In this document: positions 44,934 to 54,979 of the stretch, piece by piece
Layout of the letters: the number at the start of each line of letters is the position of its first letter
How positions within the stretch are numbered: the stretch's first letter is position 1
Origin: Acidimicrobiia bacterium
Lineage (GTDB): Bacteria; Actinomycetota; Acidimicrobiia; Acidimicrobiales; VFJN01
Length of the DNA stretch: 64,000 nt
NCBI GenBank assembly: GCA_009694375.1
Contig: SHVB01000003.1
Span: forward strand, 62,001 to 126,000
Direction: 5' to 3'
Made by a program: the position numbers and the translations under genes
The notes under the pieces: model-generated
Seen by the model: only the letters and a program-made list of their open reading frames with translations
Told to the model about the DNA's origin: nothing
Database searches by the model: none

Positions 44934-45542
44934 ATGAGCGATCGTCTCACATTCTCGGTGAACTGGGACTACCGATGCCCCTTCGCCCGCAACCTCCACT
45001 ACTACGTGATCACGGGCCTGCGCGCCGGCGCCGCCTGGGATGTCACCTTCGAACCGTTCTCCCTCGGCCAGATGCACCACGAGGAGGGGGAGCCCGACAT
45101 TTGGGATCACTGGCAGGACGATACGGGGATGCTGGCCCTCCAAGCCGGGGTGGTCGTACGGGACACGTTTCCCGACCGGTTCCTCGACACCCACGAGGCC
45201 CTGTTTGCGCGGCGTCACGATCACGGCGGCCAGATCCACCGCGAGGAGACGATTCGAAGCGTGTTGGAAGAACAACACGTCGATGCCGACGCCGTGTTGG
45301 CCCAGATCGCCACCGGGGAACCATTGGTGACGGTGCAACAGGCTCACGAGGCCACCGTGAAGTACCACGAGGGGTGGGGTGTTCCCACCCTCATACGAGG
45401 TTCCAGTGCCGTGTTTGCCCGCGTGATGAACCGGCCGCAAGGCCATCCGGACGAGGCCATCGCCTACATCGAACGCATCGTCGATCTCATCGACAACTTC
45501 CCTGAACTCAACGAGTTCAAGCACACGTCGCTCCCCCGCTGA
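44934..45542 (+). CDS. DsbA-family thioredoxin-fold protein
   Basis: A 202-residue DsbA/2-hydroxychromene-isomerase-like protein. It opens FSVNWDYRCPFARNLHYYV, so the CxxC position carries a single Cys (CPFA). The helical insertion and the cis-Pro loop GVPTLIRGSSAVFARVMNR fit the fold. The single Cys and absence of a signal peptide argue for a cytosolic glutathione/mycothiol-S-transferase-like or isomerase function rather than disulfide formation. Located between PAP2 and WS/DGAT genes on the same strand with short gaps (43 and 23 nt). Confidence 0.8.
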   Translation: MSDRLTFSVNWDYRCPFARNLHYYVITGLRAGAAWDVTFEPFSLGQMHHEEGEPDIWDHWQDDTGMLALQAGVVVRDTFPDRFLDTHEALFARRHDHGGQIHREETIRSVLEEQHVDADAVLAQIATGEPLVTVQQAHEATVKYHEGWGVPTLIRGSSAVFARVMNRPQGHPDEAIAYIERIVDLIDNFPELNEFKHTSLPR

Positions 45543-45565
45543 GCGGCCACTAGCGTTTCGGGACT

Positions 45566-46999
45566 ATGGCTGGAGATCGGGAACTTCGGAACGAACGGCG
45601 CATGACCGACGTCGAAGCCCTCATGTGGAACCTCGAAAAAGACCCCCGCCTCAGCGCGTCGATCGCCAACATCACGCTGTTCGATCGCCCCCCCGACCCT
45701 GATCGATTGCGGGCCCGCCTGGAGCGGGCCGTGACCATGGTCCCCCGCCTCCACCAACGGGTGGTGCCGGCCCTCGGACGTCTGGCTCCTCCCGAGTGGC
45801 GCGCCGAGCCCGACTTCGACCTCAACTACCACCTCCGCTGGACCGCTCTCCCCGCCCCGGGCACCATGGCCCAACTACTTGAACTGGCCAGCGCCCATGT
45901 CCAGCGGCCCTTCGACCGGACGCGACCACTGTGGGAGTTCCTCGTGATCGAGGGCATCGAAGGGGGCGGCGCCGCCATGGTCCAGAAGTTGCACCATTCC
46001 ATCGCCGACGGGGAGGGCAGCATCCGCATGTCGGAGCAGTTCATCGACATCGACCGAGACGCCACCGAACCCATCGCTCCCCCCCGACCCCCTCCCGAAT
46101 CGATCGATTCCACCTTGCTGGAGGCAACGATCGATACCTTCACCCACCAACTGCGCCGGGGGCTCGGGCTCGTGCGCCGCAGCGCCGAAGGGGGCGTCGC
46201 GGTGATGCGGGACCCCCGACACCTCACCGGCCTGGCGGGCGATGCCCTCGAACTCGGTCGATCGGCGCGGCGGCAAATCGGGGTGGCCGACCCCGCCCGA
46301 TCACCACTGTGGAAGCAACGATCGCTCCGCCGTGGCATTGAGGTACTCCAGGTGCCCCTGGCCGAGGCCAAGGCCGCCGCCAACACCCTCGGCGGAAGCC
46401 TCAACGACATGTTCGTGGCGGCCGCCGTCGGCGGGGCGGGGGCCTACCACCGCTCCGCCGGATCGCCGATCGACGAACTTCGCATCACCATGCCGGTGAG
46501 CACCCGCCGCGACCACTCCTCCGGCGGCAACTCCTTCACTCCTACCCGCGTGCTCCTGCCCGTCGGCCTCCACGACCCGCAGGAACGCTTCACGGCCATC
46601 CGGTCCCGACTCGACACCACCAAGCAAGAGCGGGCCATGACTTTGGTCGGCGGCCTGGCCGGGGTGGCCAACCTGCTTCCCACCTCGGTGATGACGCGCC
46701 TCGCCCGCCAGCAAGCCGAGACGGTGGACTTCGCCACCTCCAACGTGCGCGGCGCCCCCTTCCCGCTTTTCATCGCCGGGGCGCGCATCGAAGCCAACTA
46801 CCCGGTGGGCCCCACCGGCGGCACCGCCTGGAACCTCACCCTGATGTCGTACAACGGCAGCCTCGACATGGGCCTGAACGCCGACCTGGGCGCGGTGGCC
46901 GACCCGGGGGGTCTACGGGACGCGATCACGGATGAGTTCGCCGCGCTGATCGCCGCCGGCACGCGGACGAGGCCCCGACGACAAACGTCTCGGAACTAG
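45566..46999 (+). CDS. wax ester synthase/diacylglycerol acyltransferase (WS/DGAT)
   Basis: A 477-residue WS/DGAT. The catalytic HHxxxDG is HHSIADG at 143-149. Other parts are the N-terminal MTDVEALMWNLEKDPRLSAS, RPLWEFLVIEG, GGSLNDMFVAAAVGGAGAYH and the C-terminal TSNVRGAPFPLFIAGARIE plus NLTLMSYNGSLDMGLNAD. It esterifies diacylglycerol or long-chain alcohols with acyl-CoA to store neutral lipid, as in mycobacteria. Initiation could instead be at the Met 12 codons in. Its stop shares the CTAG with the stop of the convergent small gene. Confidence 0.9.
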   Translation: MAGDRELRNERRMTDVEALMWNLEKDPRLSASIANITLFDRPPDPDRLRARLERAVTMVPRLHQRVVPALGRLAPPEWRAEPDFDLNYHLRWTALPAPGTMAQLLELASAHVQRPFDRTRPLWEFLVIEGIEGGGAAMVQKLHHSIADGEGSIRMSEQFIDIDRDATEPIAPPRPPPESIDSTLLEATIDTFTHQLRRGLGLVRRSAEGGVAVMRDPRHLTGLAGDALELGRSARRQIGVADPARSPLWKQRSLRRGIEVLQVPLAEAKAAANTLGGSLNDMFVAAAVGGAGAYHRSAGSPIDELRITMPVSTRRDHSSGGNSFTPTRVLLPVGLHDPQERFTAIRSRLDTTKQERAMTLVGGLAGVANLLPTSVMTRLARQQAETVDFATSNVRGAPFPLFIAGARIEANYPVGPTGGTAWNLTLMSYNGSLDMGLNADLGAVADPGGLRDAITDEFAALIAAGTRTRPRRQTSRN

Positions 47000-47235
47000 G
47001 CGCCGACCGAAGCCCCGGCGGCGGGGTTTCTCCCGGAGGCCAACTCGGCCGCCGTGAGAAGCATCCGCACATCGAGGAGAAGATCGGATACCTCATCGGT
47101 TGATACGAGCTCCCGGTGCATCAGGTCCAACAAGCCGCCGTCAATGAGACGCAGGGCCTCATTGATCACCGCCTCATCGGTACCCTTCGCACCCGCTTCG
47201 CCCGTACCTGCTGTGGCAACCTCTGTCTTAGTCAT
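46996..47235 (-). CDS. small hypothetical protein
   Basis: A 79-residue soluble protein that I do not recognise. After a Gly/Ala/Thr-rich start the body is helical: DEAVINEALRLIDGGLLDLM, HRELVSTDEVSDLLLDVRML, then LTAAELASGRNPAAG. The pattern looks like a small helical bundle. A TAGGGT hexamer 7 nt before the ATG supports this start. The reading frame ends exactly at the convergent WS/DGAT stop, sharing the CTAG. Divergent from an F420-type oxidoreductase. Confidence 0.6.
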   Translation of the reverse strand: MTKTEVATAGTGEAGAKGTDEAVINEALRLIDGGLLDLMHRELVSTDEVSDLLLDVRMLLTAAELASGRNPAAGASVGA

Positions 47236-47248
47236 CCCCGACACCCTA
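47236..47248 (-). promoter_or_regulatory. predicted leaderless -10 element (TAGGGT)
   Basis: Minus-strand TAGGGT (47248-47243), 7 nt, then the ATG of the 79-residue gene. Confidence 0.45.
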
Positions 47249-47339
47249 CCCAAGCCTTGTGACGACGGGGCGGGATTACGCCCCCAAATGACGAACGTCA
47301 CGTCATCGGGGCCCGCCCAGGCCACCCCGGTCCAGCGGT

Positions 47340-47354
47340 TAGCGTTCGCGGTCA
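47340..47354 (+). promoter_or_regulatory. predicted -10 element (TAGCGT)
   Basis: TAGCGT at 47340-47345, 8 nt, then the ATG of the F420-type oxidoreductase. Confidence 0.4.
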
Positions 47355-48340
47355 TGGGAATGGAACGAGCCGGAGTGACCTTTGCCAGCCTCATGAACCT
47401 CGGTCCCGATACCGCCATCCGCACCTCGGTGCTGGCAGCCGACCTTGGCTACGACTCGTATTGGACCGCCGAGACCACCGGCCCGGAGGCGTTCTCGCTC
47501 CTGGCGGCGGTGGGGGCCGCCGCCCCGTCACTCGGCCTCGGCACCGGCGTGCTGGCCCTCCAACTGCGCACCCCGATGGTGGTGGCCATGGCCGGAGCCA
47601 CCCTGCAAGCCCTGCACCCCGAACGCGACATCGTCTTGGGGGTGGGTATCTCCTCGCCCGTAGTCACCCAGCGATGGCATGGCGTTGCCTACCGCGACCA
47701 TCCTCTCGGCCACACCCGCGAATACGTGGCGTTGTTGCGCCAATGCCTCACCGGCGAGAAGGTGGATTTTGACGGCGACTTCTACCAAGTCAAAGGGTTC
47801 CGGCTCGGAGTGCGGCTCGGCGAAAAGAAACCAAAGATCGTCATCGGGGCCCTCAACCCCAAGATGTTGGCCTTGGCTGGCGAAGTGGCCGACGGGGTGG
47901 CGCTCAACTATCTCCCCGCCTCCCACGTTGGATGGTCCGTTGAGCAGGTGCGCAAGGGCGGCAACGCCGAGATCTACGCCTACGTGCACGCCGGTGTGTG
48001 TGAGCGTCACGAGGGCATCGACCACGCCCGCCGCGATCTCTTCTCCTACGCCGTGGTTGATTCCTACGCCCGCAACTTTGCCCGGGCTGGCTTTGCGTCC
48101 GAGGTGGAAGCGATCCGTGCCCACCATGATGCCGGCAACCGAGAGGGGGCCTTGGCGGCGGTGTCGGATCGGATGGTGGATGCCATCGATGTGATGGGCG
48201 ACCCCGATGCCGTGCACGCCACCATGCAGGCCTACGTGGCCGCCGGGGTGGACGTGCCCATCCTCATGCCACTGCCCTGGGGCAGCGACCGACATGCCTC
48301 GGCCGACCTCAGCATCCGCGCCGGCCTCGGAAAAGCCTAG
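47354..48340 (+). CDS. LLM class F420-dependent oxidoreductase
   Basis: A 328-residue luciferase-like protein. It shows ADLGYDSYWTAETTGPEAFSLL, SLGLGTGVLALQLRTPMVVAMAGATL, ERDIVLGVGISSPVVTQRWHGV, HPLGHTREYVALLRQCLTGEK, and PKIVIGALNPKMLALAGEVADG. The conserved WHG and the nonprolyl cis-peptide region match the F420 subfamily. It starts a tight unit with an SDR (9-nt gap) and a 97-residue hypothetical gene. Two in-frame ATGs six bases apart are possible starts. Pairing with an SDR suggests sequential redox steps on one substrate. Confidence 0.85.
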   Translation: MGMERAGVTFASLMNLGPDTAIRTSVLAADLGYDSYWTAETTGPEAFSLLAAVGAAAPSLGLGTGVLALQLRTPMVVAMAGATLQALHPERDIVLGVGISSPVVTQRWHGVAYRDHPLGHTREYVALLRQCLTGEKVDFDGDFYQVKGFRLGVRLGEKKPKIVIGALNPKMLALAGEVADGVALNYLPASHVGWSVEQVRKGGNAEIYAYVHAGVCERHEGIDHARRDLFSYAVVDSYARNFARAGFASEVEAIRAHHDAGNREGALAAVSDRMVDAIDVMGDPDAVHATMQAYVAAGVDVPILMPLPWGSDRHASADLSIRAGLGKA

Positions 48341-48349
48341 GAACGACCA

Positions 48350-49141
48350 ATGGACATCACGGACAAGGTGATACTCGTCACCGGCGGGGCCAACGGCATA
48401 GGGGAAGCCCTCGTGCGCCGCTTCGTGGCCGAAGGGGCCCGAGGCGTGGCCATTGTGGATCGAGATGCGCCGCAGTCGGTGGCTCTCGCCGAAGAACTCG
48501 GCCCCACCACCATCGGCCTCACCGCTGACGTAGCGCACGAGCCCGACATCGTGGCGGCGGTGGAAACCACCGTCGCCCACTTCGGTCCGATCGACCTCCT
48601 CGTATCCAATGCCGGGATCGGCATCGGCGGTGGGGTCGAGACCCCCAACGAAGCCTGGCAAGAAATCTGGGAGATCAACGTGATGGCCCACGTCTATGCG
48701 GCGCGCGCCGTGCTGCCGGCCATGATCGCCCGGGGTGAGGGCTACTTGCTGAACACCGCCTCGGCGGCGGGGTTGCTCACCAACCTGGGTACCGCGCCCT
48801 ACAGCGTCACCAAACACGCCGCCGTGGCCCTCGCCGAGTGGCTCGCCATCACCCACGGCGACGAAGGCATCAAGGTCTCGTGCCTGTGCCCCCAAGGCGT
48901 GCGCACGAACATGCTGCTCGCCGGGGCCGATGACACCGCCGGCTCCGTGGTGCTCGCCCAGGGTGCGATTGAGGCCCACGAGGTAGCCGAAGCCGTGGTG
49001 CAGGGCCTGGCCGCCGAGACCTTCCTGATCCTCCCGCACCCGGAGGTACTCACCTACTTCCAGCGCAAAGCGGGCGACTACGACCGCTGGCTCGGCGGGA
49101 TGCGCAAACTCCAACGCCGGGTTCGCGAGGCCCTGGCGTGA
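48350..49141 (+). CDS. SDR-family oxidoreductase
   Basis: A 263-residue classical SDR. It shows [21 protein letters not shown], the cofactor Asp after beta-2 in VAIVDRDAP (NAD-preferring), [13 protein letters not shown], and the catalytic Ser/Tyr/Lys in [28 protein letters not shown]. The C-terminus [26 protein letters not shown] is typical of a mycobacterial SDR subgroup. An AGGA Shine-Dalgarno overlapping the stop of the upstream oxidoreductase gives good spacing. Its stop overlaps the next GTG by three bases' worth of GTGA. The substrate is unknown. Confidence 0.87.
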
Positions 49142-49431
49142 AAGACGAGGGGGCCACCCCGGCCGCCCTCACCGACAGCGCCCTGCTGGCGGTGGGCCTG
49201 CGCCCCGGAGACCAGGTGCGCTTCCGTCGAGCGGGAGGCGGCTCCTGGCTGGAGGCGAAGGTCGAACGCCGCGAGGGCGACGGCTCGGTGGGGGTGCGAG
49301 ACACTCGTGGGGCCGCCCGGGCCATCCCCTGGGAACGGCTCGAGGTACGCACACGCGGCCCGCGCGGAGGCGCCACCTGGGAACAGGTGGCGGAACGAGT
49401 GCAGCGCGAGGAGCAACTCGGCATCTGGTAA
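49138..49431 (+). CDS. conserved small hypothetical protein
   Basis: A 97-residue protein with a strand-rich core, [20 protein letters not shown] then [19 protein letters not shown] and [10 protein letters not shown], suggestive of a small SH3/Tudor-like barrel. It ends [21 protein letters not shown]; a similar Trp-Glu...Glu-Gln-Leu ending occurs in other small actinobacterial proteins as I recall them, but I cannot name a family. The GTG start is in a GTGA overlap with the SDR, so it is translated as the third gene of that operon. Function unknown. Confidence 0.65.
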
Positions 49432-49490
49432 TCGGCCAGCCGAGCCGGTGGGTCGACGCGAGATCCCTCCAGTGTGCAAACCTGCGGGGC

Positions 49491-50561
49491 GTGGACCGCC
49501 CCACCGTGGACATCTACGAGGAGCAAAGTTCCTTCTACGAGGCCCACCGGACGCCCCGCCACCTCGAGGCCGCCATCGCGCTCGGGCAACGGCGACCCGC
49601 CGGCCCGGTGGCGGACCTCGGTTCCGGCCCCGGCTGGTACACCGCCGCCCTGGGTCGTCCGGTGGTGGCCTTCGACGCCGCCGCCGCCATGCTGCGCCGC
49701 ACGAGGGAGGTAGCCCCCGGGTGCCTCCCGGTGCGGGGCGACCTAACGGCCCTTCCCTTCCGGCGCGGCAGCCTGCGCGCTGCCTGGGCGCGCAACTCCT
49801 ACGTGCACCTGCGCGCCACCGAGGTACCTATGGCCCTCAACGACCTCCACCACGCCCTCGCCGTGGAGGCCCCGGCCGAGCTGACGTTCTTCGGTGGGAC
49901 CGAACAAGGCCGGGGCGTGTTCCCCCACGACGACCTGCCCGGTCGCTGGTTTTCCACCTGGACGACGGAGCGATTGCAGGATGTGGTGCACGGCGCCGGG
50001 TTCGAACTCGACGATCTCGCCACCCACCCCGACCCCACCGGAGGGGCCGAGTACAGCCTAAGGACCACCCGCGCCCATGGTCTCCCCGACTTCGTGGGCG
50101 CCGGCATGCGCCTGTTGGTGAGCGGCCTCAACCCCAGCCTGCACGCCGCCGACCATGGCGTCGGATACATCAGCGCCACCAACCGCTTTTGGCCAGCCGC
50201 CCTCGCCGCCGGGATGGTGAGTCGAGACCGGGATCCCCGCCACGCCCTCGCCCACCACGGCATCGGCATGACCGATCTCGTGAAACGGGCCACGCCACGC
50301 GCCGATGCCCTCGACCCAGCCGAATATGTGGCCGGGGTGGCCCGCCTCGATCGCTTGTGCGCCTGGCTGCAGCCCGAGGCCGTGTGCATCGTGGGGTTGG
50401 CCGGATGGAGGGCCGCCGTGGACCGTCAGGCTCGTACCGGGTGGCAATCGCACTCCCTCGGAAGCCGACCGGTATACGTCATGCCGTCCACCAGCGGGCT
50501 GAACGCCCGTACCTCCCTGGCGGATCTCACCGAGCACCTACGCTCGTTCGCCATCGCGTAA
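49491..50561 (+). CDS. fusion of a class I methyltransferase and a Mug/TDG-type DNA glycosylase
   Basis: A 356-residue two-domain protein. Residues ~1-195 are a SAM-dependent methyltransferase: motif I VADLGSGPGWYTAALG (40-55), an acidic residue after VVAFDAAAAML, and YVHLRATEVPMALNDLHHALA. Residues ~205-356 match the mismatch-specific uracil-DNA glycosylase (Mug) family: LLVSGLNPSLHAADHG (Asn214 at the Mug catalytic position), ISATNRFWPAALAAG, GIGMTDLVKRATPRADAL and the intercalating loop MPSTSGLNAR (331-340). Usual Mug is ~165 residues and free-standing. The linker is continuous and no frameshift or internal stop is needed. Base-excision repair linked to methylation is a possible role. GTG start. 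Confidence 0.85.
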   Translation: MDRPTVDIYEEQSSFYEAHRTPRHLEAAIALGQRRPAGPVADLGSGPGWYTAALGRPVVAFDAAAAMLRRTREVAPGCLPVRGDLTALPFRRGSLRAAWARNSYVHLRATEVPMALNDLHHALAVEAPAELTFFGGTEQGRGVFPHDDLPGRWFSTWTTERLQDVVHGAGFELDDLATHPDPTGGAEYSLRTTRAHGLPDFVGAGMRLLVSGLNPSLHAADHGVGYISATNRFWPAALAAGMVSRDRDPRHALAHHGIGMTDLVKRATPRADALDPAEYVAGVARLDRLCAWLQPEAVCIVGLAGWRAAVDRQARTGWQSHSLGSRPVYVMPSTSGLNARTSLADLTEHLRSFAIA

Positions 50562-50574
50562 CGATGCGGTCAAC

Positions 50575-50588
50575 TACCGTGCCACTCA
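50575..50588 (+). promoter_or_regulatory. predicted leaderless -10 element (TACCGT)
   Basis: TACCGT at 50575-50580, 7 nt, then the ATG at 50588. It favours this start over the ATG eight codons upstream. Confidence 0.4.
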
Positions 50589-51592
50589 TGGCCCTGCGAC
50601 TGGAACCCCACGACGAATACATGCACGAACTCGGTCCCGAGCCGAACTTCAACGAGAGCATGTACTTCAACCTGTACGACCCCGCCCAGGGTGTGGGCGG
50701 ATGGTTTCGGTGTGGCAACCGAGCCAACGAGGGCTACGCCGAGATGACCGTGTGTCTTTACCTGCCGGGCGGTCGCGTGGCCTTCATGTACAAGCGAGCC
50801 GAGATCTCGAACAACGATGCCTTTGACGCTGGCGGCATCCGCTTTGATGTGGTCGAGCCGTTTGCACGGCTTGACGTGTCGTACTCCGGCAAAGTGGTGG
50901 TGCTCGACGATCCGCTCCAGATGGCCAACCCCAAGAAGGCCTTCACCGACAACCCCTACGCCCAGTGCGAGGTGAGCATCAACTATTCCGGGGTATCAGC
51001 CATGTTCGGCGGCGAGCCCGACACGCCGCACGAGAAACCCGGCGAGGAATTTGCCAAAGGCCACTATGAGCAGTTGATGGCGGGGAAGGGCTCCATCCGA
51101 GTGGGCGACGAGGAGTGGGAGGTCGACGGATTCGGTCTGCGCGACCACTCGTGGGGCCCCCGATTCTGGCAAGCCCCCTGGTACTACCGCTGGCTGACCG
51201 CCAACTTTGGCCCCGACTTCGGATTCATGGGATCGCGGATCGCTCGGCGCGACGACGAGGGCACCCGCGGCGGATTCGTCTGGGAAGACGGACAACTCCA
51301 TCTCTGCCACGACTTCGAAATCGCCACCGACTGGGAAGGCGAGGACAGCTACCACCAGACCATCACCGCCACGCTGCGCTCCGCCGAGAAAGAGTGGAAG
51401 GTCACCGGCAAGGTGCTCAACCTCATTCCGCTGCGAAATCGTCGCCCCGATCCCGCCACCGGCGACATGCTGGTCACCCGCATTTCCGAGGGCATGACCG
51501 AGTGGACGCTCGCCGACGGCCGCCAGGGCTACGGCATGAGCGAGTACCTCGACCAAATCATCGACGACTACCCCGTGGGTCTGGCCGAATAA
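50588..51592 (+). CDS. AttH/CrtC-like lipocalin-fold protein (DUF7064/DUF7065-like)
   Basis: A 334-residue cytosolic protein. It has the conserved segment VDGFGLRDHSWGPRFWQAPW, the RDHSWGPR hallmark of AttH / carotenoid 1,2-hydratase-like double lipocalin folds and of a large actinobacterial family often next to lipid or steroid genes. The N-terminal half (EPNFNESMYFNLYDPAQGVG, then GYAEMTVCLYLPGGRVAFMY) and the C-terminal half are both strand-rich, consistent with two barrels. It may bind or hydrate a hydrophobic substrate; the reaction is unknown. The start is chosen by the leaderless-type hexamer. Confidence 0.72.
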   Translation: MALRLEPHDEYMHELGPEPNFNESMYFNLYDPAQGVGGWFRCGNRANEGYAEMTVCLYLPGGRVAFMYKRAEISNNDAFDAGGIRFDVVEPFARLDVSYSGKVVVLDDPLQMANPKKAFTDNPYAQCEVSINYSGVSAMFGGEPDTPHEKPGEEFAKGHYEQLMAGKGSIRVGDEEWEVDGFGLRDHSWGPRFWQAPWYYRWLTANFGPDFGFMGSRIARRDDEGTRGGFVWEDGQLHLCHDFEIATDWEGEDSYHQTITATLRSAEKEWKVTGKVLNLIPLRNRRPDPATGDMLVTRISEGMTEWTLADGRQGYGMSEYLDQIIDDYPVGLAE

Positions 51593-51597
51593 CCCCC

Positions 51598-51610
51598 TAG
51601 CCTGAGGTCA
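51598..51610 (+). promoter_or_regulatory. predicted leaderless -10 element (TAGCCT)
   Basis: TAGCCT at 51598-51603, 6 nt, then the ATG of the DUF427 gene, within an 18-nt intergenic gap. Confidence 0.5.
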
Positions 51611-51891
51611 TGCGCGCTCTCTGGAACGGAACAGTCCTGGCTGAATCTGACGACACCGTGGTGGTGGAAGGCAACCATTACTTCCCCGCCTCCAGCGTGC
51701 GGGCTGACCTCTTCGAGGCGAGCGATCACCGCTCGGTGTGCCCCTGGAAAGGCACCGCGAGCTACCAGACGGTGGTGGTCGACGGGCAACGCAACGAAAA
51801 CGCCGCCTGGTACTACCCCTCGCCCTCCGACGCCGCCGCCGAGATCAAAGGCCGCTACGCCTTCTGGAAGGGCGTCACGGTAGAGGCCTGA
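51610..51891 (+). CDS. DUF427 domain protein
   Basis: A 93-residue single-domain DUF427 protein. It shows MRALWNGTVLAESDDTVVVEG, NHYFPASSVRADLFEAS, the conserved CPWKGTASYQTVVVDG and the end NAAWYYPSPSDAAAEIKGRYAFW. The family is a small Tudor-like/beta-rich fold of unknown function, common in actinobacteria and proteobacteria. It ends 4 nt from the convergent sulfatase-like gene. Confidence 0.9.
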   Translation: MRALWNGTVLAESDDTVVVEGNHYFPASSVRADLFEASDHRSVCPWKGTASYQTVVVDGQRNENAAWYYPSPSDAAAEIKGRYAFWKGVTVEA

Positions 51892-51895
51892 GGCT

Positions 51896-53167
51896 CTACC
51901 CCTCCGCCTTGGATCGGCTTTCCCGTTCGGTCCAACTGAACACACCCTTGGACATGGTGCTGCGCTCCTCGGCTGCTCGACGACCGAAGACCTCCGCCCT
52001 CACCCTGTGCACACCGGCGTCGCCGGGGGCGGCCTGAGCCGCCAACTCGGCGAGATGTCCGGCCAACCGAAGATCACCGGCGGCCGCCAACTCCGAGGCC
52101 CGCTCGGCGAGCCGAGAGGCGCCGCCGGCCAGCGCGGCCATCTCCGTGGCGATCGCGACATCCGCCGGAGGCTTTAGCCGAGCCGGGTTACCGTCGTACC
52201 ACCCGCCGTAGAGCCGCCACAGGTTCCGGACCACGAATTCCGGCTCGTCGTACACCGGCCGAAGGTAGGGCTTGTCGAGCAAATGAGCGGGAGCCTGCAC
52301 GGCCTGAACAATGTCGTCGAGCCGGGCGCCCTCGTTCATAAGAGCCAAGGTTTGGTCGACCAGGGACTCAAGTAGTTCGGCACTATCGCTCAGTGCCTGG
52401 TTGATCCGATCGCTCCCGAGAATCGGGAAGCCGTGCCCCGGCAGCAGCACCTCGGCGCCCAAGGCGGCCATCTTGCGCAGACCGATCGCCCACTCGCGCG
52501 GGTATCGCTGCACCTTCTGGGGGTTGCCACAGTTGGGGCTGGCCCAGATGAACAGGTCACCAGTACAGAGCACCTTGCGTCCGGGGTTGAACATCCAGGT
52601 GGAGTCGTCGGTCTCGCCCTTGTCGTGATGGAGTTCCCACTGCTCACCCCCCACCTCCAGCGTGTGGTGATCCCGATACACCTCGTCGGGCTGGCGGTAA
52701 TGGATGGGCCAATAGAGCTTCGGGAACTGGAACTGCCGCTGGTTGATGATGCCGTTGTACCCGGCGGTGAGGACGTAGCGCTCGAAGCGCGGGGGCACGA
52801 GTTCGTGGGCCACCACGTGCGGGGGGGTCCATCCATTGGCGAGGGCCTCCTCATCGAAGGGTGCCATGCCAAAGACGTGATCGATGTGCCCATGGGTGTA
52901 GACCACCGTGCCCAGACGGTCGCGGTTCCACTCCCGGATCCGTTCGTGGTTGGTGGCCGCCATGAACTGGTTGCCGGTGTCCACCAGCAGCAGGCCATCA
53001 TCGGTGGCGAAGGCCGAGATGTTCCCGAAGGCGCCGTTGAACGCCGTGCGGGGAGCCACTTCGGCCAGACCGAGGTCTTGGGTGACAGGGTGGTGACCAC
53101 CCCCATCGGTAGACCCCTCGCCGGTCCACATCTGCTCCGCGATCTCCAAAAGGTCGGCCACAAACAC
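51896..53167 (-). CDS. alkylsulfatase-like metallo-beta-lactamase-fold hydrolase
   Basis: A 423-residue metallo-beta-lactamase protein. It has the zinc motif THGHIDHVFG (His92, His94, Asp96, His97), KVLCTGDLFIWASPN (Asp), EVLLPGHGFPI (His) and an N-terminal AFGNISAFATDDGLLLVDTG. A ~150-residue helical C-terminal part (LLESLVDQTLALMNEGARLDDI through RPVYDEPEFVVRNLWRLYGGWYDGNPA) matches the dimerisation domain of SdsA1/BDS1-type alkylsulfatases. The C-terminal sterol-carrier-type domain of SdsA1 is lacking. It may release sulfate from alkyl or other sulfate esters. It begins with GTG. Confidence 0.82.
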   Translation of the reverse strand: MFVADLLEIAEQMWTGEGSTDGGGHHPVTQDLGLAEVAPRTAFNGAFGNISAFATDDGLLLVDTGNQFMAATNHERIREWNRDRLGTVVYTHGHIDHVFGMAPFDEEALANGWTPPHVVAHELVPPRFERYVLTAGYNGIINQRQFQFPKLYWPIHYRQPDEVYRDHHTLEVGGEQWELHHDKGETDDSTWMFNPGRKVLCTGDLFIWASPNCGNPQKVQRYPREWAIGLRKMAALGAEVLLPGHGFPILGSDRINQALSDSAELLESLVDQTLALMNEGARLDDIVQAVQAPAHLLDKPYLRPVYDEPEFVVRNLWRLYGGWYDGNPARLKPPADVAIATEMAALAGGASRLAERASELAAAGDLRLAGHLAELAAQAAPGDAGVHRVRAEVFGRRAAEERSTMSKGVFSWTERESRSKAEG

Positions 53168-53198
53168 ACTTTCGCACAGTCGCCCGCCTCACCGGGAG

Positions 53199-54167
53199 TT
53201 ACCGAGGAGCGAGATCGCGTATCGCTTGGCGGGCGTCGATGCCGAAGGGGAGCAAGGCCAGCGCCGGAGTGGTCACACCATGGTGCACATAGCGGGCGAT
53301 GTGTTCACGACACTTCTCGGGCGGACCCCACACGATGAGATCATCAACGACCTGATCGGGAATCGCCGCTAGCGCCGCCTTGCGGTCTCCCTCTTTCCAG
53401 AGACGCCACATCTCACTGAGCACCTCACCACGACCCAGCCACTCGTGGAAGGCGGCGTACACCGGCACGTTCAGGTAGGCGGCAATGGCGAAGCGGCCCA
53501 TCGCTCGCACCTTGTCGGCATCATCGGTGGGGGCGACGAAGATGCGGGCCACAATCTCCCGGTCGGCACCGCCGGCCGCCGCCTGCACGATCGGCACCAC
53601 GGTCGCTACATCCTCGGCGCTGAGCCAGTTGATGATGGCGCCGTCGCCATCTCGACCCGCCAAAGTCAACATTCCCTCTCGCAAGGCGGCAATGAGGATC
53701 GGCACGGGATGCTCGGGCCGCACACCCAAGGTGAAACTCCGCACGCTGAACGACGGCGTCTCCATCGTTACCTTCTCGCCGGTTAGCGCCGCCCGGAGAA
53801 ACCGCACCATGTCCTTCGTGCGCTGGTAGGGGTCCTCGAAGGGAATGCCGTTCCAGCCCTCCACGATCACGTTGGACGACGTACCGATGCCGAAGGCCAC
53901 GCGCCCGGGCGCGGCGTCGGCCAGGGAGGCCACCGACTGCGCCAGGCAGGCCGGGCCGCGGGTGAAGGCCGGGACAATGGCCGTGCCCAACCGCAGCGAC
54001 GGCGCCCATACCGACGCCAGGGTCAGCGGGGTAAACGCATCGGCGCCGTTGGCCTCGGCCGACCACACGTCGGTGTAGCCCAATCCCTCGAGTTCCACGA
54101 TCCACTCTCGCTGCGCATGCAAGGGAACGTTGTCGAAGGGAATCGTCATGCCAAAGCGCTGGTCCAT
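53199..54167 (-). CDS. LLM class F420-dependent oxidoreductase
   Basis: A 322-residue luciferase-like protein. It shows ELEGLGYTDVWSAEANGADAFTPL, LRLGTAIVPAFTRGPACLAQSVASLA, GRVAFGIGTSSNVIVEGWNGI, TKDMVRFLRAALTGEKV, and HPVPILIAALREGMLTLAGRDGDG. This subclass often acts in F420-dependent lipid or terpenoid metabolism in actinobacteria. No Shine-Dalgarno sequence is evident for the ATG chosen; a second in-frame ATG lies six codons later. The gene is divergent from the EthD-like gene, with 98 nt between. Confidence 0.85.
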   Translation of the reverse strand: MDQRFGMTIPFDNVPLHAQREWIVELEGLGYTDVWSAEANGADAFTPLTLASVWAPSLRLGTAIVPAFTRGPACLAQSVASLADAAPGRVAFGIGTSSNVIVEGWNGIPFEDPYQRTKDMVRFLRAALTGEKVTMETPSFSVRSFTLGVRPEHPVPILIAALREGMLTLAGRDGDGAIINWLSAEDVATVVPIVQAAAGGADREIVARIFVAPTDDADKVRAMGRFAIAAYLNVPVYAAFHEWLGRGEVLSEMWRLWKEGDRKAALAAIPDQVVDDLIVWGPPEKCREHIARYVHHGVTTPALALLPFGIDARQAIRDLAPR

Positions 54168-54253
54168 AAGAGGATCATTACCCAACCCACCCGACGAGGC
54201 AGACCGACGGGCCCCCACGAGTGGCCGGCGCGCCTACCCGGGGCATCCCCGGG

Positions 54254-54266
54254 TAGGTTCCCGCCG
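54254..54266 (+). promoter_or_regulatory. predicted leaderless -10 element (TAGGTT)
   Basis: TAGGTT at 54254-54259, 6 nt, then the GTG of the EthD-like gene. Confidence 0.5.
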
Positions 54267-54979
54267 TGGAAAAACTTGTCTACGGCCTGTGGCGCCAACC
54301 CGATCAGGACCTTGGCGCCATGCGCTCGGTGCTGCTCAACGTGGTGGCCCCTCGATTGCTCGAGTTAGGGGTGGCGGGCCTGCGGATTTGTGTGGAGGAG
54401 CCCATCGGGCGCGCCTACCGGGTGGGGGCCCAACCCGACGGAGCGGTGCTGGCCGCCTCCGTCTCCCTGTGGATCGACAACTACGACGACCGGGCGCCCC
54501 ACGAGGAGGCGATCGGCGCCGCCAACGCCCAGAGCTACGGCTGGATCGTGGCCGAATCGGTCGCCCGGGGCTACGGCGAACAGCGCTCTTGGCCCGACGG
54601 TGAACGCTCCCCCGGGCTATCCATCACCACATTCTTCGACAAGAAAGACGGCGTCGACGACGACACCTTCTACCGAATCTGGCACGGCGAGCACACCCCG
54701 CTGAGTTTCGTTATCCATCCGTTCTGGCTCTACGTCCGCAACCAGACGCTCCGAGCCGTTACCCCCGGAGCCCCCCGGGTGCGAGGCATCGTGTACGAGG
54801 CTGTCCCCCATGATGAGGACATGTTGGACTTCACCCGCTTCTTTGGCTGCGCGTCGGAGCCAGAGAAACTCATGGACCAGATCGCCATCGTGAACAACCA
54901 CATGGATACCTTCGGGAACCGCCGCGACCTGCAGTGTGTCGCCATGCGGGAGTGGATCTTCAAAACGTTCTCAACCTGA
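54266..54979 (+). CDS. EthD-like domain protein
   Basis: A 237-residue protein with the EthD (dimeric alpha/beta barrel) signature FYRIWHGEHTPLSFVIHPFWLYV in its C-terminal half, preceded by FFDKKDGVDDDTF. The N-terminal half (LVYGLWRQPDQDLGAM, then LNVVAPRLLELGVAGLRICV) looks like a second, more divergent copy. EthD-type proteins are small redox or hydroxylation helpers and polyketide-type tailoring proteins; the exact role is not known. The GTG start is six nt from a TAGGTT. It is convergent with a methyltransferase gene, with a 10-nt gap. Confidence 0.7.
   Translation: MEKLVYGLWRQPDQDLGAMRSVLLNVVAPRLLELGVAGLRICVEEPIGRAYRVGAQPDGAVLAASVSLWIDNYDDRAPHEEAIGAANAQSYGWIVAESVARGYGEQRSWPDGERSPGLSITTFFDKKDGVDDDTFYRIWHGEHTPLSFVIHPFWLYVRNQTLRAVTPGAPRVRGIVYEAVPHDEDMLDFTRFFGCASEPEKLMDQIAIVNNHMDTFGNRRDLQCVAMREWIFKTFST

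Follow-up and report, generated by a model that had tools for sequence, protein, structure and literature searches.

A methyltransferase-Mug glycosylase fusion gene of Acidimicrobiales and its hollowed-out relatives

Background

Why should a methyltransferase be joined to a Mug-type DNA glycosylase in one gene, and which part of the joint protein has been kept in evolution? The question is raised by a locus in a 64,000-nucleotide stretch of an Acidimicrobiia genome (hereafter the window), where a frame at 49491..50561 on the forward strand carries both parts. Enzymes of the Mug/TDG type include the glycosylase of active DNA demethylation in animals, and the sequence-only reading of this locus suggested that the fusion could couple methylation to base excision, or that the two parts might be neutral partners. 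We found no earlier description of a methyltransferase-Mug fusion in the open-access papers searched, and one may exist elsewhere.

Results

Architecture of the fusion gene

The frame starts with GTG and runs uninterrupted through 356 codons to its stop. Its first residue is shared with the relatives, in which the start codon is either ATG or GTG. Pfam, NCBIfam, AlphaFold and Foldseek agree on two folds within the 356 residues, a class I SAM-methyltransferase (residues 1-195; 49491..50075, +) followed by a Mug/TDG glycosylase (residues 196-356; 50076..50558, +), and thus bear out the earlier proposal that a single gene holds both. The AlphaFold model of the whole protein, built with 55 natural fusions, has no weak segments (pLDDT = 96.1, pTM = 0.93), and the high pTM suggests that the two domains may be held in a fixed arrangement.

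The N-terminal half is predicted to adopt a Rossmann-like methyltransferase fold (AlphaFold and Foldseek) and matches the class I methyltransferases 3e23, 3h2b, 3l8d, 8ys9 and Trm9 (5cm2) in Foldseek. It is also recognised by Pfam (Methyltransf_25/11), the Methyltransf_25 match covering residues 40-124 (2.1e-8, above the curated cut-off). Motif I, earlier placed at residues 40-55, was found there as D42-x-G44-x-G46-x-G48 (residues 40-48; 49608..49634, +), and these four residues are 100% conserved in the 55 intact fusions, as are H106 (49806..49808, +) and R152. D62 (49674..49676, +) is the acidic residue after strand 2, which we take to be the SAM ribose contact expected of class I methyltransferases; it is present in 96% of the fusions and replaced by E in the remainder. 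H106 is invariant in the free relatives as well, and a D-[FL]-P-G-R-x-F-S-x-W loop occupies residues 148-157 (49932..49961, +). A lack of obvious DNA-methyltransferase catalytic motifs had already been noted for this gene, and across the 55 fusions the methyltransferase portion nowhere shows the classical motif, [DNS]PP[YFW] or PCQ/PCN. Scores for the named families BioC, UbiE, DVU_1556 and daptide reach at most 20.1 bits against NCBIfam cut-offs of at least 155. In the lineage of the window, where it is intact and subject to purifying selection, the SAM-binding half is probably still SAM-active, with a small molecule or a nucleic acid as putative substrate.

The C-terminal half is matched by the Pfam UDG family over residues 200-343 (7.1e-11, above the curated cut-off) and by the NCBIfam Mug model (1.5e-21), although its 76.8 bits lie below the equivalog cut-off of 144, so it represents a divergent member and not an equivalog of the E. 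coli type. E. coli Mug (3.8e-18) and human TDG were matched in the PDB by phmmer, and the top Foldseek matches are 1mug (TM = 0.88 of target) and then TDG; the predicted structure therefore shows the Mug fold where a missing glycosylase fold had been considered. All four glycosylase motifs lie where they had been read, namely GLNP (residues 212-215), NRFW (residues 231-234; 50181..50192, +), GIGMTDLVKRAT (residues 257-268; 50259..50294, +) and SGLNAR (residues 335-340). The first belongs to glycosylase motif 1, GLNPS (residues 212-216; 50124..50138, +), in which N214 aligns with the catalytic Asn of Mug/TDG; the last overlaps motif 2, STSGLNA (residues 333-339; 50487..50507, +), whose aligned counterpart in E. 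coli Mug is NPSGLSR. G212, N214 and P215 of the G-[IL]-N-P motif are invariant in the 55 fusions, the matching residues are likewise so in 32 half forms (described below), and S216 is also invariant across the intact fusions. Given the fold and N214, excision by the Mug half is most likely directed at uracil, thymine or exocyclic adducts that face G, through the usual Asn-water mechanism.

Distribution and selection

Of 396 Acidimicrobiales genomes, about 80 have the full fusion (counted from the match table), and 41 of 60 relatives have matches to it. In the genus of the window, one genome carries it at 87% identity (G003) and another at 96-98%, there cut by a contig end (G001). The collection scan returned 80 loci, nearly all of them full-length fusions of about 345-370 residues with the same start, and almost all carry the label Acidimicrobiia/Acidimicrobiales or Actinomycetota. 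Among named records the nearest is labelled Candidatus Microthrix parvicella RN1 isolate TH-08apr19-254. A missed stop or frameshift between the domains had been raised as a concern; the fusion is present in same-genus genomes and spans its full length in dozens of further genera, and conservation within the genus and across the order rules out a sequencing artefact or frameshift as its origin. Rather than being restricted to one genome, the arrangement is conserved across the order. Outside Acidimicrobiales, no fused form was seen in the 396-genome phylum sample, in which Mug and methyltransferase are always separate and matches cover the Mug part only or, elsewhere in the genome, the methyltransferase part only. 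Annotation as 'methyltransferase' or 'Mug' alone is a misnomer for these proteins across a whole bacterial order. The surveyed genomes are mostly MAGs, and very decayed remnants may be overlooked by the scans.

Both halves are under purifying selection, as dN/dS among close pairs lies at 0.09-0.45 in the methyltransferase half and at 0.11-0.28 in the Mug half.

Hollowed-out forms

Many genomes of the order match the fusion only from near residue 105-160 onward. We retrieved 40 such regions in addition to those from the scan of 60 relatives; loci cut by contig ends (L016, L017 and L019) were left out of the count. In at least 46 related genomes the SAM-binding half is gone, leaving an intact Mug and a remnant of ~75 residues. 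In most of the retrieved regions a normal Mug follows some 70-90 residues in which LPxxLAxLHR and GAGF are kept. The part retained corresponds to residues 112-195 of the window protein (49824..50075, +). When 32 half forms are compared with the 55 intact fusions, the invariant residues Y9, D42, G44, G46, G48, D62, L88, P89, H106 and R152 are mostly gone, as is the 148-157 loop, whereas P113 (97%), L116 (100%), A117 (97%), H120 (94%), GAGF at G168-F171 (84-97%) and R194 (94%) are kept. One half form (L166), modelled together with its relatives, gives a confident predicted fold (pLDDT = 94.7, pTM = 0.92) in the order strand, helix, strand, helix, two strands and then Mug, and Mug is again its top Foldseek match.

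Two half forms keep their first residues (TFAVYEGAAER in L161 and STVEVYDA in L167) and continue in frame from residue ~104 or ~112; with the N-terminal TxxVYE/D retained, these are internal deletions and not cases of a missing start. Several others have a stop codon just upstream of the start. The half forms occupy the same chromosomal slot as the fusion, with an SDR or a small gene upstream and a convergent luciferase-like gene downstream. We rejected the idea that they are split genes: among the half-form loci retrieved, the missing N-terminal half of the methyltransferase lies upstream only in L162, a genuine frameshift split that was set aside, and one weak upstream match to it (E = 5e-4) was seen in L200.

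In some members of the clade (G002, G454, G561 and G619) the methyltransferase is almost entirely lost, and the half-domain is thus not indispensable. In G002, which belongs to the genus of the window, Mug directly follows the small upstream gene. The locus concerned (L153; G002:C110:18996-29481) has a solo Mug, an SDR without its middle and fragments only of the metallo-hydrolase, pointing to several deletions or assembly trouble, and with the SDR and metallo-hydrolase shortened in this MAG region the loss in G002 is to be read cautiously. Two further variants were observed. An in-clade Mug without methyltransferase is longer by roughly 115 residues at its C-terminus (L029; G009:C30), and a solo-looking Mug (GINPS) in G669 (L206) has a strongly decayed half-domain remnant (RLHFEARRRPGG...LNGF), possibly a further stage of erosion.

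Phylogeny

In the tree of Mug domains, the methyltransferase-linked Mugs form one clade apart from the ordinary solo Mugs (SH-aLRT = 100). Full and half forms are interleaved within it, and 27 changes of the half label are required over the 46 half forms, at least five of them forced by strongly supported branches; given the modest inner support of this tree, 'many' losses can safely be stated and the exact number cannot. The fused methyltransferases also form one clade (90), which adjoins free methyltransferases of Acidimicrobiales (97). Two genomes, G043 and G467, have both a free methyltransferase of the fused type and an ordinary Mug. The trees support a single fusion event, and the simplest history of these sequences is one in which the SAM half was lost repeatedly afterwards. 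What stays constant is Mug together with the half-domain next to it, and we take methylation to be optional.

Neighbourhood and other repair genes

A short-chain dehydrogenase (SDR; 48350..49141, +) lies upstream of the fusion, with a small gene of 97 aa without Pfam match (49138..49431, +) directly before it, and a luciferase-like oxidoreductase (53199..54218, -) is convergent with the fusion; the SDR and the luciferase-like gene are kept in many relatives, and for all three genes the link is one of synteny only. In several families the 97-aa gene stands beside the fusion (about 47-64% identity), in others it occurs elsewhere, and its presence in only 15 of 60 relatives excludes it as an obligate partner. 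Across 44934-54979 the window also encodes a WS/DGAT acyltransferase, a second luciferase-like oxidoreductase, a DUF7064/7065 protein, a DUF427 protein and an alkyl-sulfatase-like metallo-hydrolase at conserved positions. We rejected this neighbourhood as a functional operon, since its position is conserved yet a tie to repair is not evident.

The neighbours of the free methyltransferase were likewise discarded as a clue to the substrate, as they vary between G043, G467 and G616. In G043 this gene, which is similar to the fused type, stands beside egtB- and egtD-like ergothioneine genes (L150, 1885-5741); such neighbours occur only there among the genomes checked, those in G467 and G616 being unrelated.

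The genome of the window also encodes a family 1 UNG and a GLAPA-type UDG, which rules out the fusion as essential by virtue of being the sole uracil repair enzyme. No C5-cytosine DNA methylase was detected in it, so G:T pairs derived from 5mC are not an obvious substrate. Taken together, neither uracil nor deaminated-5mC repair seems an obvious sole task.

Discussion

We favour, with a probability of roughly 0.6, the reading that the protein is a glycosylase of the Mug type extended by a structural part of methyltransferase origin, which was gained once early in Acidimicrobiales and whose SAM half is optional. A class I methyltransferase would have joined the N-terminus of a Mug/TDG-type glycosylase in a single early event. 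Residues 112-195 (helix, strand, helix, two strands) most likely pack on Mug as a fixed extension, which may help to keep in place the enzyme, the DNA it acts on or a partner. The SAM-binding half would then represent an optional activity, intact in the lineage of the window and repeatedly deleted elsewhere. The structural role is read from the pattern that Mug plus half-domain is what most lineages keep; some free methyltransferases likewise have P113, H120 and GAGF, and retention of these residues need not imply contact with Mug. A more specific version comes close to an even chance in our judgement, namely that a metabolic-type methyltransferase was captured by Mug and was repeatedly and independently stripped to the same half-Rossmann module of ~75 residues, which now serves as a working accessory domain.

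The fusion might instead be a neutral bifunctional protein, combining an unrelated small-molecule methylation with Mug repair on one chain, the remnants being products of slow decay. The persistence of a solo Mug in the same-genus G002 and in G454, G561 and G619 is consistent with this, as are the occurrence of both parts as free proteins in other genomes and the resemblance of the methyltransferase to small-molecule enzymes. However, plain decay would not spare the same half so often, P113, L116, H120, GAGF and R194 are retained in 32 divergent half forms while other residues vanish, and a confident fold is predicted for the remnant; we consider neutrality unlikely.

Coupling of methylation to excision as the purpose of the fusion, raised as a possibility in the sequence-only reading, is not supported as a general rule, for many relatives have deleted the SAM-binding half, which makes methylation dispensable to whatever keeps both parts together. 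In its fuller form, both reactions would belong to one pathway, with the methyltransferase working at the lesion on the DNA, the abasic site, the base released by excision or a repair protein. The long retention of the fusion, its SAM site intact and purifying selection acting on it in many lineages, and the predicted fixed arrangement of the domains speak for such a coupled repair enzyme, but the SAM half is repeatedly lost while Mug stays, the DNA-methyltransferase catalytic motif is absent, enzymes for small molecules, lipids and tRNA (Trm9-like) are among the closest folds, and the genome has no detected C5-cytosine DNA methylase. It appears improbable. Least of all do we expect the methyltransferase fold to be a sensor that methylates nothing and tunes Mug in response to SAM or SAH: the SAM-binding residues are invariant in intact fusions, but the catalytic-side H106, R152 and W157 are conserved like the SAM site, which suits an enzyme, and that site is often lost.

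These proteins offer a clear case in which the catalytic half of an enzyme domain was lost many times and the other half retained. One glycosylase is available as a matched set, intact, half and solo, which makes the contribution of each part directly assayable. If the more specific version given above is true, an enzyme was repeatedly turned into a scaffold, and intact and stripped versions exist side by side in one order.

Comparison with known systems

UbiE/BioC/Trm9-like class I methyltransferases (3e23, 3h2b, 3l8d, 8ys9 and 5cm2) have a fold like that of the N-terminal half at 14-22% identity; with such low identity and no family model reaching its cut-off, their substrates cannot be transferred to the fusion. 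Closer are the free DDFPGR-type methyltransferases of Acidimicrobiales (L207, L208, L209 and L213), which are 34-40% identical over the methyltransferase half and share the SAM motif, H106 and the FPGR...W loop. They differ in being about 190 aa long, stopping before the Mug part and having a residue other than His at position 120, and their neighbours are not conserved and give no substrate clue.

On the glycosylase side, solo actinobacterial Mugs (GINPG/GINPS; L121, L158 and L210-L217 among others) belong to the same Pfam and fold family at about 33-43% identity, but are without the methyltransferase part and form a separate clade (SH-aLRT = 100; L210-L217 were outside that tree). E. coli Mug (1mug) and human TDG, of family 2 of the UDG superfamily, share with the fusion the fold (by target length, TM = 0.88 for Mug and about 0.76 for TDG), the catalytic Asn, NRFW and the order of motifs. 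Mug occurs as a free protein, as had correctly been stated for the usual case, and TDG carries other tails. The fusion is set apart from both by the attached N-terminal methyltransferase, or its half, and by a motif 1 that reads NPS instead of NPG.
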